DNA of 62,207 nt from a virus, in the IMG/VR virus record IMGVR_UViG_3300033141_002292, positions 1 through 62,207 of that record; one strand, 5' to 3'. This document shows, one piece after another, positions 3,387-48,503 of the stretch. The notes beneath the pieces are model-generated. The model made no database searches, was not told the DNA's origin, and was given only the letters and a program-made list of their open reading frames with translations. Each line of letters begins with the position of its first letter. Position 1 is the stretch's first letter. A program made the position numbers and the translations under genes.

Positions 3387-3432
3387 GCGTGACAACCCAT
3401 CAACCTTTCAAGGCTTGATGAGGTGGAAACCG
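3366..3432 (+). promoter_or_regulatory. Long leader hairpin upstream of the ParB/Dam gene
   Basis: A perfect 13-bp inverted repeat pairs 3366-3378 with 3420-3432. Inside the loop a second stem forms from CATCAA-CCTT and AAGG-c-TTGATG. It lies in the 5' leader between the promoter at 3289 and the start at 3447. It could be an attenuator, an RNA switch or part of an autoregulatory site. Confidence 0.55.
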
Positions 3433-3446
3433 GCCTTTCGGGGATT

Positions 3447-4526
3447 ATGATGAAAATAGATTCTGAATTTCACGATCTCATCTCACCGCTTTCCGACGAA
3501 GAAAAGAATCAACTCGAGGCAAACATACTTGCCGACGGCATTCGCGATCCTCTCGTCATCTGGAATGACACCCTCGTCGATGGGCACCATAGATACGAAA
3601 TAGCCAAACGGCATAACCTCACATACCGCACCGTCGAACTCAACCGCGATACTCGAGATGACGTCATGCTTTGGATGATCGATAACCAGGGCGGACGCCG
3701 CAACCTCTCGACCTATGCCAGGGGAGAACTCGGCCTGAAGTACCTTGAGATCGAGTCTCGGCTCGCTAAGGATAGGATGCTCGCAGGCAAAGCTGACCCT
3801 AGGCAGAATTCTGCCCAGGGTAGTCCCGACACTAACAAAGCAGCCGAGCGAGCCGCCAAGACCGTTGACATGTCCCGAGACACCCTTAGCCGAGTGAAGT
3901 ATCTCAACGAGCACGCTGACGATGAGACGAAGACAAAACTACGCTCTAATGAAACATCGATTAATCAAGAATATACAAGATTACGGTTACGCGAAAACAG
4001 CCCACCGTTAGCGAGCAAGCCTCATATTGCTCATAACAGCGGCAATAACGAATGGTACACACCGGCTCGGTTCATCGAGTCTGCCCGAACAGTGATGGGT
4101 TCCATCGACACCGACCCGGCATCGAGTGAGGTAGCGAATGCCGTTGTCGAGGCCGAGACGTACTACACCGAAGAGACAGACGGTCGTGACAAGGTCTGGA
4201 ATGGGAACGTTTGGATGAATCCTCCGTATGCACAACCGCTCATCGGTGACTTCTGTCGAGGAATCGCTGAGCAATACAAGGCCGGCAGCATCAAGCAGGC
4301 ATGCGTTCTTGTGAACAATGCCACGGAAACAGCTTGGTTTTCTGACCTCTTTTCTGCATGCTCGGCAGTCTGCTTCGTTCGTTCAAGGATTCGATTTATT
4401 GATCAAGGAGGCGAAGAATCGGGCTCACCATTACAAGGCCAGGCGGTTGTTTATTGCGGGTATAATGCATCAGGTTTCGTGGATGAGTTCAAGGCTCACG
4501 GAACGTGTATGATTAAGCCGGAATGA
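3447..4526 (+). CDS. ParB-like domain fused to Dam-type DNA N6-adenine methyltransferase
   Basis: A 359-aa two-domain protein. The N-terminus (about 1-90) is a ParB/Srx-like domain: a DGIRDPLVIW segment, then LVDGHHRYEIA. It is followed by a helical region (90-190) with a possible helix-turn-helix. The C-terminal half is a phage Dam-type adenine methyltransferase: NNEWYTP, IDTDPAS near residue 222 and the catalytic NPPY motif at about 258-261. It should methylate adenine in DNA, probably in a sequence-specific way. I chose ATG 3447 (ATG 3450 is equally possible) rather than the GTG at 3423 because the latter lies in the hairpin. The gene interrupts the portal/head block and has its own promoter, so it looks like an inserted accessory module. 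No cognate endonuclease is evident. Confidence 0.85.
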   Translation: MMKIDSEFHDLISPLSDEEKNQLEANILADGIRDPLVIWNDTLVDGHHRYEIAKRHNLTYRTVELNRDTRDDVMLWMIDNQGGRRNLSTYARGELGLKYLEIESRLAKDRMLAGKADPRQNSAQGSPDTNKAAERAAKTVDMSRDTLSRVKYLNEHADDETKTKLRSNETSINQEYTRLRLRENSPPLASKPHIAHNSGNNEWYTPARFIESARTVMGSIDTDPASSEVANAVVEAETYYTEETDGRDKVWNGNVWMNPPYAQPLIGDFCRGIAEQYKAGSIKQACVLVNNATETAWFSDLFSACSAVCFVRSRIRFIDQGGEESGSPLQGQAVVYCGYNASGFVDEFKAHGTCMIKPE

Positions 4527-28580: not shown

Positions 28581-29249
28581 ATGACTATAAAACTAGAGAC
28601 TGGATTGGTTCTCGGGAAACTCACGATCACAGAAGACCTTCAGCGCAGAAGTCGCCATGGCGATAGGGTCTGGAGTGCAATCTGTGAATGCGGAATCATC
28701 ATAGAGGATACGGCATGCCACTTAAGAAAAAGAACATCATGTGGCTCACATATATGCAGAAAAATCAGAAGTGACACAAATGGCGGCTATGCACCAAACG
28801 ATGCAAGCAAGAGGATTCCTGAATATGGAATTTGGAGACTAATAAAACAGCGCTGTTGCAACAAAAACAATCCCGCGTTCGCTGATTATGGTGGTCGTGG
28901 GATATTCGTTTGTGATGAATGGATTCACAATTTCAAAGCTTTCATCGATGACATGGGAAGAAGACCAACGAAAGACCACCAAATAGAAAGAATCGATAAT
29001 TATGGACCGTATTCAAAACAAAACTGCAAATGGGCTACTCGTTTCGAGCAAGGATGTAACAAGCGAAATAATATATGGATGGAATGCAATGGAAAACGAC
29101 TGATTTTGGCCGAATGGTCAAGACAAACAGGGTTGCCTGAGAAAATGCTTCAGAATAGAAAGAGGGCTGGATGGTCTGATAATCGAGCATTGACTACGAT
29201 ACCAAAATCTGATCATCGTCGAAAAAAAATCATTTTGAATTTGCCGTAA
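28581..29249 (+). CDS. HNH-family homing endonuclease-like protein
   Basis: 222 aa. An N-terminal Cys-containing module (CECG...CGSHIC) is followed by the typical phage HNH core: YGIWRLIKQRC, YGGRGIFVCDEWI-NF--FIDDMGRRP, IERIDNYGPYSKQNCKWAT and NKRNN, then a C-terminal helix-turn-helix-like part (LAEWSRQTGLPEKMLQNRK). It is visibly more A/T-rich than the flanking genes, has its own promoter and lies between functional blocks, as expected for a mobile free-standing endonuclease. Confidence 0.8.
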   Translation: MTIKLETGLVLGKLTITEDLQRRSRHGDRVWSAICECGIIIEDTACHLRKRTSCGSHICRKIRSDTNGGYAPNDASKRIPEYGIWRLIKQRCCNKNNPAFADYGGRGIFVCDEWIHNFKAFIDDMGRRPTKDHQIERIDNYGPYSKQNCKWATRFEQGCNKRNNIWMECNGKRLILAEWSRQTGLPEKMLQNRKRAGWSDNRALTTIPKSDHRRKKIILNLP

Positions 29250-29289
29250 TTCTTGTCTTTTCTAGTCTTGTCGAATCGGTCCCTGTAAG

Positions 29290-29785
29290 TTCATGTCTAG
29301 TCCTGCTTGGTGCCCTACGATCACGAAAGCAACCGCAGGGCTTCTTTTCTCATCCCGTCGTGTCGAATCCTGTCGAGTCGCATCTTGTCCAGTCCCGTCT
29401 CGTCCCGTTAAATCGTGTCTGGTCCGGCCCCATCGCATCTCGTCTAATCATGCTTGGCACCCCACCGCAACGAAAGCCACGGGGCATCGGGTCTTGTCTC
29501 GTCCAGTCACGTCGCGTCACGCCTGGTCTCGTCCGGTCTTGTCAGGTCCCGTCAAGCCTGGCACCCCTGAACCCCGAAAGAGGTCTAAGGGTATCGAGTC
29601 TTTTCTTGTCCCGTCTCATCACGTCGTGTCTCGTCCGGTCCCGTCACGTCCCGTCACGTCTCGTCAGGTATTGGAGCCCAACCAAAGTTTCACGTTTGGC
29701 CGGGCCTCTTGTCGCGTCTTGTCCGGTCTTGTCAGATCCTGTCACGTCTAATCAAGTCCGATCTCGGCTCGTCCGTTCATGTAAA
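29290..29785. repeat. Pentamer/hairpin array 1
   Basis: Strictly phased NNRTC pentamers (GTC or ATC every 5 bases) in runs of about 15-20, broken by four roughly 40-nt units near 29307, 29452, 29556 and 29671. Those units carry complementary arms, and three of the four have a CGAAAG centre. The plus strand is pyrimidine-rich and poor in A. No convincing gene is present. Confidence 0.85.
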
Positions 29786-30325
29786 TCATGAAAGTAGCAG
29801 CCACTCAGCGAGCAACCCTTTATCAGCGGACTCCCCCTTGTCCGCAAGTTTTTGAATCGTTTTCGGCTTCGACGCCGCTTGAATTAGATGTGCATGAACC
29901 GCCAGAGAATTCGCCCGTGATCGTTCACCGGTGGAGAGCTCGCTCATGTCAGCGCTTGCAACCACGACGCTCGCAGTCTTCGCCCTTCGGCCGGCCCTGC
30001 ATATCTCGGCCTCTGTCCTCTCAAGTCGCTCTCTGGCGTCGAGGCACTTGATACGGCCTTCTTTCCTAACCCGTTGCCAGAGCACTAGATGCTTCCTCAA
30101 AACGTGCTTGATGGCCGAGTTGAGCATTCCGTACCCCTGGCCGCTCGGGTCGACCTTTTGAAGATCCCCTGGCCAGTCCTCATCGACAATGAAGTCGCCA
30201 GGTGTCCCGACCTCGAGGACGCGGATAAACCGCGAAGTCTTCGGCCCGGAATTCCCGTAGACCGGGCCTTCGTAACCATCCTCTGAAATCTCATTTAGTC
30301 TTTCGACTACTTCCTCTTGGCTCAT
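29786..30325 (-). CDS. Hypothetical protein between repeat arrays
   Basis: 179 aa, not recognised. A mixed N-terminus (EEVVERLNEISEDGYEGPVYG), a DPSGQGYGMLNSAIKHVLRKHL helix and a charged C-terminal helical half. A GAAAGGAAAGAAA leader precedes ATG, as in other early-type genes. It is the second gene of the leftward unit driven from 31824-31796 and is flanked on both sides by repeat arrays. Confidence 0.65.
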   Translation of the reverse strand: MSQEEVVERLNEISEDGYEGPVYGNSGPKTSRFIRVLEVGTPGDFIVDEDWPGDLQKVDPSGQGYGMLNSAIKHVLRKHLVLWQRVRKEGRIKCLDARERLERTEAEICRAGRRAKTASVVVASADMSELSTGERSRANSLAVHAHLIQAASKPKTIQKLADKGESADKGLLAEWLLLS

Positions 30326-30349
30326 TTTCTTTCCTTTCTAGGCAAATGA

Positions 30350-30745
30350 TTTTCGTGTCGGGTCAGTTCTAATCGTGTCCTGTCAAGTCAGGTCTTGTCA
30401 TGTCGTGTCGCGTTTGGTGCTCCCTGCGACCGAAAGATCACGGGGAGCTTCTTGTCTCGCCGGGTCCGGTTTCGTCGTGTCGAATCATGTCGCATCGTGT
30501 CTCGTCGGGTCATGTCGATTTCGGAGCCCGACCAAGTTTTCAAGCTTGACCGGGCCTCTTGTCTCGTCTTGTCGGGTCCGGTCTTGTCGCGTCTCGTCTC
30601 GTCCGGTCGCGTCTTGTCATGTCGCATCGTGCTTGGAGCCCACGGCCACCGAAAGGCAACCGTGGGCCTCTTGTCTTGTCGTGTCTCGTCCTGTCGAGTC
30701 ACGTCTTGTCAAGTCCTGTCGCGCCGGGTCGTGCCGTGTCGCGTC
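30350..30745. repeat. Pentamer/hairpin array 2
   Basis: Same build as array 1: NNRTC pentamers with three hairpin units. Arms are GCTCCC 30419-30424 with GGGAGC 30443-30448; GAGCCCG 30524-30530 with CGGGcCTC 30551-30558; GAGCCCACGG 30636-30645 with CCGTGGGcCTC 30660-30670. Confidence 0.85.
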
Positions 30746-30749
30746 CATG

Positions 30750-31376
30750 TTATTCAATGATCTCAAATTTAAAGTTCTCAACCCGGAAGATCCCATGATC
30801 GCCGCCATTGGTCCCGGGCCTATTACAGCCGATTCCGACTTGGTAGCCGGCAGTTTCCAGGGTTTCGCTGATCATCTCAGGGTGCTCGATGATATCGGCA
30901 TCGACGACCATGAACCCGATCGCGATATTCCACGGCGGATCGATCTCAGGGAAACATCGAGGCACCCTCTTTGAGCCGCCTCTTGTCCCGTCGCTTGGTA
31001 CGGAAATCGTTCGACCGATCACGTCATCGATATGAACCGGCTCAAGCTTCTTACTTTCATCGTTGATGGCGTAGACCAACGTTTCCGGCGCTGTCGGGTC
31101 GGTCATGATCCCGCTCTTGAATCGTGCGGTGAAAGTCGACCTGTTCTTACCGGGGACCTTGTCGTTTCGGAGCTTCGAGGCCTGCTCCATGCCGAGCTTG
31201 AAGGCGATCGGCGGAACCAAAACCAGGTCGTCTTTGTTGATGTGACACCGTTCTCGCCAGCACCTCTTATCCTGCGCCTCTGCCGATTCCTTTCCCTTTC
31301 GCGGGCTCTGAAACATGCGCCCGAATGTCAGTGTGGTTAGTCCGATAATGTCCGCGCTAAAGATTCCTCTTCTCAT
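30750..31376 (-). CDS. Hypothetical protein between repeat arrays
   Basis: 208 aa, not recognised. N-terminal RRGIFSADIIGLTTLTFGRMF looks like a hydrophobic helix. The body has an alpha/beta character with a VLVPPIAFKLGMEQASKL stretch and a C-terminal HGIFRVENFKFEI strand. A GAAAGGAAAGAGC leader precedes ATG. First gene of the leftward unit, about 410 nt downstream of its promoter, with array 3 forming the leader. Confidence 0.65.
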   Translation of the reverse strand: MRRGIFSADIIGLTTLTFGRMFQSPRKGKESAEAQDKRCWRERCHINKDDLVLVPPIAFKLGMEQASKLRNDKVPGKNRSTFTARFKSGIMTDPTAPETLVYAINDESKKLEPVHIDDVIGRTISVPSDGTRGGSKRVPRCFPEIDPPWNIAIGFMVVDADIIEHPEMISETLETAGYQVGIGCNRPGTNGGDHGIFRVENFKFEIIE

Positions 31377-31404
31377 CTTGCTCTTTCCTTTCGTTAGTTA
31401 AAAA

Positions 31405-31680
31405 ACTTCAATTCGCGTCCTGTCAGATCCGGTGCCGTCCTGTCACGTCTAGTCGGGTCAGTTTGGAGCCCACAACCACCGAAAGATAGCTGTGGGCCTC
31501 GTGTCGTGTCGCGTCACGTCCGGTCGGTCCGAATCTGATCTTGTCAAGTCACGTCGGGTCCTGTCAGGTCCCGTCTGGTCCCGTCTGGTTTGGAGCCCTC
31601 GCCGACCGAAAGATCAGCGGAGGCCTCTTGTCTTGTCGTGTCTCGTCCTGTCTCGTCGTGTCTCGTCACGTCGATTCTTT
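31405..31680. repeat. Pentamer/hairpin array 3
   Basis: NNRTC pentamers with two hairpin units, 31466-31500 (GAGCCCACA with TGTGGGcCTC) and about 31592-31627 (GAGCCCTCGC with GCgGAGGcCTC). Changes on one arm are largely matched on the other when units are compared. It lies within the predicted 5' leader of the leftward transcript. Confidence 0.85.
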
Positions 31681-31795: not shown

Positions 31796-31824
31796 ACTAT
31801 ACGCGTTGACGCGTACCGTAGCAA
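31796..31824 (-). promoter_or_regulatory. Leftward promoter with perfect palindromic operator (O3)
   Basis: On the minus strand TTGCTA (31824-31819), 17-bp spacer, TATAGT (31801-31796). The perfect palindrome TACGCGT-TG-ACGCGTA occupies 31800-31815. It drives the two leftward genes through array 3. Confidence 0.75.
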
Positions 31825-48003: not shown

Positions 48004-48503
48004 TACAGTATTTCGAGTACTTCACGGCGCGAGCAGACAAGCTTGTCCTGGTCGAAAATTATCCGTCCCGAGCATGCTACTCGCGTTACAACGCCATCCT
48101 GCCCGCCGTATTTTTTAGCGTCGTCGAGTTCTAGGGACGCATGAAATCCAGAATTGCAGATGGATATTTTGCCGTCATACTCGAGGACATCCCCTGGTTT
48201 AATAAATTTTCCGTTCATGTCATGCCGCAACGTCCCATTCGTTGTCAGTACATGCCACGCCTTTATGGGTGAGTTGTGAGCAAGCTCTATTTCGCCGTAG
48301 CCGTTGCCGTTGCCGTAGCCATTGCCGTTGCCGTTGCCGTAGCCGGAGCCGTCGCCGTAGCCGTAGCCGTAGCCGTTGCCGTTGCCGTAGCCATTGCCGT
48401 AGCCGTAGCCGTTGCCGTAGCCGGAGCCGTTGCCGTAGCCGTTGCCGTTGCCGTAGCCGGAGCCGTTGCCGTAGCCGGAGCCGTTGCCGTTATTCAACCC
48501 CAT
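48003..48503 (-). CDS. DUF7666-like protein with GYGNG low-complexity N-terminus
   Basis: 166 aa. Residues about 3-70 are a run of GYGNG/GNGSG units. The C-terminal 95 residues (KAWHVLTTNGTLRHD, then a PGDVLEYDG and ICNSGFHASLELDDAKKYGG) match a phage domain of unknown function that I know as DUF7666. The start ATG 48503 overlaps the previous stop. Confidence 0.65.
   Translation of the reverse strand: MGLNNGNGSGYGNGSGYGNGNGYGNGSGYGNGYGYGNGYGNGNGYGYGYGDGSGYGNGNGNGYGNGNGYGEIELAHNSPIKAWHVLTTNGTLRHDMNGKFIKPGDVLEYDGKISICNSGFHASLELDDAKKYGGQDGVVTRVACSGRIIFDQDKLVCSRREVLEIL
48297..48490. repeat. Hexamer minisatellite (GCCGTA/GCCGTT on the plus strand)
   Basis: About 30 tandem hexamers of the form GCCGTA, GCCGTT or close variants encode the GYGNG tract on the minus strand. 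Because the unit is a multiple of three, gain or loss keeps frame. Confidence 0.9.

Follow-up and report, generated by a model that had tools for sequence, protein, structure and literature searches.

What are three arrays of phased five-base units and hairpins doing around two leftward genes in a phage genome? The arrays lie in a 62,207-nt stretch of viral DNA (IMG/VR record IMGVR_UViG_3300033141_002292), here called the window, which carries portal, terminase, and tail genes. The original prediction knew of no named element with this build, which was a fair statement. The element is VIPR, a kind of system known since April 2026 from a preprint only (PMC13142463), and the window locus is a further member of that kind.

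As described in the preprint, VIPR combines Vipr, a RAMP protein encoded by phages, with the accessory gene vap and with vrRNAs, each with 9 to 16 pentamers in which the triplet GGY alternates with two variable bases (NN), followed by a structured 3' tail (PMC13142463). The main text admits "or a related consensus" besides GGY (PMC13142463). The vrRNAs are bound by Vipr and expressed at about 100 nt, their NN dinucleotides decode double-stranded DNA with one base skipped between them, and the function described is phage competition and transcriptional repression (PMC13142463). The same source splits VIPR into seven types and proposes it, with its gapped two-base code, as an ancestor of class 1 CRISPR effectors (PMC13142463).

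Our results indicated that positions 29250 to 31680 of the window, with the three arrays and both leftward genes, very probably form a phage-encoded VIPR locus, for which we infer RNA-guided interference with competitors. A Vipr homologue, an adjoining Vap, pentamers with variable NN, and a structured 3' tail were all found there; the literal GGY triplet was not, as the window units were GAY. Judged from its sequence, the locus is a divergent VIPR copy with a different repeat core, and its GAY core and hairpin tails may represent a variant of the system.

Layout of the locus, pentamer tracts, and hairpin tails

Profile comparisons, RNA folds, and structural models established a predicted Vipr gene, a predicted Vap gene, and nine tract-plus-tail units, all on one (leftward) strand. 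The features, in window coordinates, were as follows.

31796 to 31824, minus strand: promoter-like TTGCTA-17-TATAGT site lying upstream of the leftward locus (consensus match only, 9/12)
31590 to 31672, minus strand: putative vrRNA 1, 9 GACNN units (31672-31628) and hairpin tail (to 31590) (tract and fold)
31463 to 31585, minus strand: putative vrRNA 2, 17 units (31585-31501) and hairpin tail (tract and fold)
31415 to 31459, minus strand: tail-less tract of 9 units, vipr leader, then AACGAAAGGAAAGAGCAAG-ATG (sequence)
30750 to 31376, minus strand: predicted vipr gene, 208 aa, Cas7-like RAMP protein (profile and structure matches)
30633 to 30745, minus strand: putative vrRNA 3, 15 units (30745-30671) and hairpin tail (tract and fold)
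30521 to 30628, minus strand: putative vrRNA 4, 14 units (30628-30559) and hairpin tail (tract and fold)
30415 to 30516, minus strand: putative vrRNA 5, 13 units (30516-30452) and hairpin tail (tract and fold)
30355 to 30409, minus strand: tail-less tract of 11 units, vap leader, then AGAAAGGAAAGAAA-ATG (sequence)
29786 to 30325, minus strand: predicted vap gene, encoding a predicted DNA-binding protein of 179 aa, the VIPR-associated protein (family and profile comparison)
29668 to 29773, minus strand: putative vrRNA 6, 13 units (29773-29709) and hairpin tail (tract and fold)
29555 to 29665, minus strand: putative vrRNA 7, about 15 units and diverged hairpin tail (tract and fold)
29455 to 29553, minus strand: putative vrRNA 8, about 13 units and diverged hairpin tail (tract and fold)
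29307 to 29449, minus strand: putative vrRNA 9, about 20 units and hairpin tail (tract and fold)
29251 to 29277, minus strand: short downstream remnant, 6 units in phase (TC periodicity)

Promoter-like sites numbered 2 in the region and 0.9 in shuffles. An HNH endonuclease gene (28581-29249, plus strand; PHROG 374, E 3.8e-46) adjoined the array and was not obviously part of the system. Elsewhere in the window, we noted a GCCGTA hexamer repeat at 48294-48490, with 32 copies of the hexamer (period 18, 10.9 copies), and a protein at 3423-4526 (plus strand) with ParB-like N-terminal and DNA methyltransferase matches.

The presence of three phased arrays around two genes, with a strict five-base period, was borne out by the counts. 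Six GTCNN units in a row occurred 29 times on the plus strand of the window and 0 times on the minus strand, compared with 0.00 in dinucleotide-preserving shuffles. TC dinucleotides were strictly 5-periodic across the three arrays, and this periodicity was absent from both genes. Tract lengths had been put at 15 to 20 units in most cases; the actual range was 9 to 20. Read in the gene sense (minus strand), the unit was GAYNN, with G at position 1 in 148/152 units, A at position 2 in 144/152, C (128) or T (21) at position 3, and mixed bases at positions 4 and 5. The triplet was conserved, and NN was near-uniform.

The NN dinucleotides were hypervariable between vrRNAs. Within a locus, the last two to three units, often with NN = AA, and the adjoining tail were constant, and the upstream units varied; the tail itself was locus-specific. 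In addition to the nine tailed units, the two tail-less tracts stood directly before the ribosome-binding sites of both genes, and autoregulation by Vipr is possible there. Relatives such as L029 and L115 likewise had tail-less GAYNN tracts before vipr and vap. When NN frequencies were compared with codon frames, positions 1-2 fit best by likelihood, a result that base composition confounds; by the odds ratio, these positions were not favored. Rfam had no match within the window. A CRISPR array was rejected because the variable positions were NN inside pentamers, not contiguous unique spacers between identical repeats.

Nine hairpins were located at about 29307, 29455, 29555, 29668, 30415, 30521, 30633, 31463, and 31590, and seven of the nine had a CGAAAG center (CUUUCG on the minus strand), so that both counts in the original prediction held. 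Each tail had a 14-pair stem and a UUUC-type loop. Folding both strands gave a summed minimum free energy of about -181 kcal/mol for the minus strand versus about -123 kcal/mol for the plus strand; the minus-strand fold was stronger because A-C mismatches on the plus strand are G-U pairs on the minus strand. Paired cells amounted to 93.5% on the minus strand versus 69.9% on the plus strand. The proposed compensation of arm changes was confirmed, with changes on both sides at 12 of the 14 stem pairs and a covariation score that was reached by 0/500 shuffles. Because the tails paired best on the minus strand, the predicted RNA is read leftward, in the same orientation as both genes, and the G-U pairing and strand-specific covariation point to selection on RNA of one strand. 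The GAC-rich leftward transcript that had been predicted would fit this orientation. Searching other phages for the hairpin pattern was less productive, as all three IMG/VR matches were unrelated terminator-like hairpins without arrays.

Proteins encoded between the arrays

When the 208-aa and 179-aa ORFs were searched alone, neither had a Pfam match or a PHROG match below 0.001, and Pfam, NCBIfam, and PADLOC assigned no family. A profile built from 25 relatives of the 208-aa protein matched PDB chain 36pp_D, "SUSP1 Vipr protein" (hmmsearch, E 3.6e-10), and hhalign joined the family to the SUSP1 and LESphi2 Vipr proteins (prob 98.9, E 1e-17). The AlphaFold model of the 208-aa protein had a pLDDT of 94.1, and its best PDB matches in Foldseek were all Cas7/Csm3 RAMPs (E 6e-7, probability 1.00). 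By profile and predicted structure, the 208-aa protein is a member of the Vipr family and a Cas7-like RAMP protein. All 25 relatives matched PHROG 4652, annotated as unknown function (best E 6.2e-15), and this family could therefore be relabeled Vipr-like. In three relatives (L122, L073, and L118), the mechanically assigned starts of the vipr ORFs extended into the array, which produced spurious N-termini (TRQDKT, TGLDKTR) that are translated GACNN repeats; vipr start codons may be misannotated.

The 179-aa family was aligned to the SUSP1 and LESphi2 Vap proteins by hhalign (prob 95, E 3.9e-8). Its model gave weak winged-helix-like structure matches, including MarR/GntR/IclR-type regulators, none of which was significant. 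The 179-aa protein is probably DNA-binding.

Relatives, triplet diversity, and decoded targets

In IMG/VR, at least 120 stretches of eight GTCNN units were found. Among the matches listed, dozens of loci had GTCNN tracts that were broken by constant spacers and flanked genes of about 500 to 650 bp. Clustering of the genes near arrays, again among the matches listed, gave a family with the 208-aa protein (n = 46) and a family with the 179-aa protein (n = 25); both lay mostly between arrays, and the 179-aa family adjoined GACNN arrays in all of its 25 loci. Among these matches, the two families recurred together across dozens of contigs as a conserved gene pair interspersed with GACNN arrays, which answered the earlier proposal to look for recurrence in other phages. 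The window locus was identified independently, with raw sequence as the starting point, and the VIPR build is common in uncultivated phages.

The fixed triplet varied between clades. In the gene sense, close relatives had 2047 GAC, 171 GAT, and 56 AAC units. Seven distant relatives (L059, L063, L097, L098, L108, L121, and L035), with vipr and the units on the strand opposite to those of the window, had gene-sense GTYNN units (351 GTC, 55 GTT, and 4 ATC). The degenerate pyrimidine stayed at triplet position 3 and tracked the orientation of vipr. The core was CGC in a Paracoccus relative (CGCNN; L172, 5840-6660) and CTC/GTC in two cyanobacteria (CTC/GTCNN; L162, 6560-6690, and L170, 5860-5930). 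There is about an even chance that different Vipr clades have come to read different fixed triplets (GGY in SUSP1, GAY in the window, GTY in the distant group, CGC in Paracoccus, and CTC/GTC in cyanobacteria) under an unchanged two-base code. Phages would then hold mutually orthogonal guide alphabets, and the window locus, with its nine guides and hairpin tails, would be a variant with a Vipr that does not load GGY guides.

Decoding was applied to relatives with a named host, and targets were found for guides of the Paracoccus litorisediminis relative (L172). After a single decoding by the published 1-nt skip (NNx), tract B (CGCNN) was compared with 298 genomes from the family of the host. Sixteen genomes matched at two or fewer mismatches, three of them at 20/20, compared with 2 for the reversed pattern; random sequence would be expected to give about 0.002 matches at 20/20 and 3.6 at two mismatches. 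We inspected one perfect match (L179) and one match with a single mismatch (L177). Both lay in the gene for the large subunit of a phage terminase, and the skipped base fell on the wobble position. Several matches with two mismatches were clearly chance. In most of 19 genomes, tract C matched a conserved gene for a serine recombinase; the 2 mismatches both fell in the single non-CGC unit, and its canonical units matched at 18/18. The 1-nt-skip rule, which here found targets in prophage terminase and recombinase genes, thus extends to a clade whose core is other than GGY. Given the triplet differences between clades and working decoding outside GGY, the triplet specificity of Vipr proteins is directly testable.

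Other searches yielded no targets. Eight-unit cores of the window tracts at 31585, 30745, 29553, and 30516 matched 14, 13, 16, and 21 stretches in IMG/VR, where rivals are possibly unsampled; we regard these matches as chance because none extended into neighboring units. Only chance matches were obtained for two other GACNN systems (L045 and L111) in IMG/VR, and the same was true of an Accumulibacter relative whose units mix GGC and GAC. An excess of 1-nt-skip matches between all tracts and the loci in hand was discarded because a single low-complexity tract (L070) produced it. Guides decoded to peptides had no match in PHROGs; positive-control peptides were missed too, so this method was without power.

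Since the four scanned window guides had no target, we infer the role of the window locus, which would be RNA-guided DNA binding and repression of competing phages. Following the published system, the leftward transcript would be cut into about nine vrRNAs, and Vipr subunits would polymerize on the GAY-NN tract with one subunit per pentamer. Each exposed NN would pair with two target bases, one target base would be skipped, and one window vrRNA would address one target of about 25 to 60 bp. The Vipr-vrRNA complex on double-stranded DNA would block transcription and thereby repress genes carried by rival phages or other mobile elements, with Vap, a probable DNA-binding protein, as a presumed helper. 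The small processed RNAs that had been suggested for these arrays would correspond to vrRNAs, and the idea of an R-loop-forming region came close because, in the published mechanism, an RNA guide directs binding to double-stranded DNA.

Alternative readings and comparison with known systems

TRAP (trp RNA-binding attenuation protein) is an 11-mer ring protein whose sites are NAG triplets with two-base spacers and a period of five. In a comparable manner, Vipr or Vap might simply bind the GACNN leaders of their own mRNAs, the arrays being an RNA or DNA landing strip that has no guide role. The tail-less tracts directly before both window genes, and in many relatives, fit this idea, as does the TRAP-like geometry of a triplet with two free bases. 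We consider it improbable, as NN varies strongly from one vrRNA to the next, the constant handle units and the structured tails stand apart from mRNA leaders, and guides of the Paracoccus relative have decoded targets. Moreover, SUSP1 Vipr was guide-loaded by experiment (PMC13142463). An autoregulatory landing strip could coexist with guide function.

The iteron-like periodicity, together with the ParB-like/methyltransferase gene of the phage, would suit a DNA-level nucleoprotein site (origin, partition, or packaging) made of 5-bp iterons. Selection on the RNA of one strand, a degenerate pyrimidine that follows gene orientation, and a linked protein that is an RNA-binding Cas7-type RAMP make such a site very unlikely. 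The origin or partition site and the helix-face (10 bp) phasing of the original prediction accordingly found no support, as the 5-nt period belongs to RNA units linked to the gene of a Cas7-like protein. Least of all do we credit an assembly artefact or neutral simple-repeat expansion; the arrays have a low-complexity look, and Tandem Repeats Finder reported short arrays, but the recurrence of the layout and of both gene families in dozens of independent contigs and in genomes refutes an artefact, and the triplet is conserved while NN is nearly uniform.

The window locus shares features with several known systems. TRAP sites share the triplet plus two bases and the period of five, but the window has GAY rather than NAG, a Cas7 RAMP rather than the TRAP fold, and hypervariable NN with tails. 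Among class 1 CRISPR effectors, the Cas7/Csm3 backbone subunits resemble the window Vipr in their RAMP fold and glycine-rich loop. Unlike class 1 CRISPR systems, the window had neither a CRISPR array nor contiguous spacers, no further cas gene was recognized among the ORFs checked, and its 5-nt unit with a fixed triplet differs from the 6-nt periodicity of those effectors. Pseudomonas phage vB_Pae_LESphi2 (OQ594955.1) has Vipr beside Vap, as in the window, with GGYNN-type tracts upstream; its core is GGC/GGG-rich, and its vipr and vap are contiguous with no array between them, unlike those of the window.

The SUSP1 system (Escherichia phage, type II, KT454805.2; PMC13142463) is phage-encoded, as is that of the window. 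In both, the small Vipr RAMP and Vap genes share one strand, the pentamer tracts combine a conserved triplet with free NN, and the 3' tail is structured. The two differ in core (GGY in SUSP1, with GGC/GGT in 34/40 units, versus GAY), in number (4 vrRNAs versus nine with tails plus two tail-less tracts), and in tail (one that includes a pseudoknot versus a single 14-pair hairpin), and the homology between their Vipr proteins was detected by profile only. The degenerate third-position pyrimidine of the window GAY resembles that of the published GGY.
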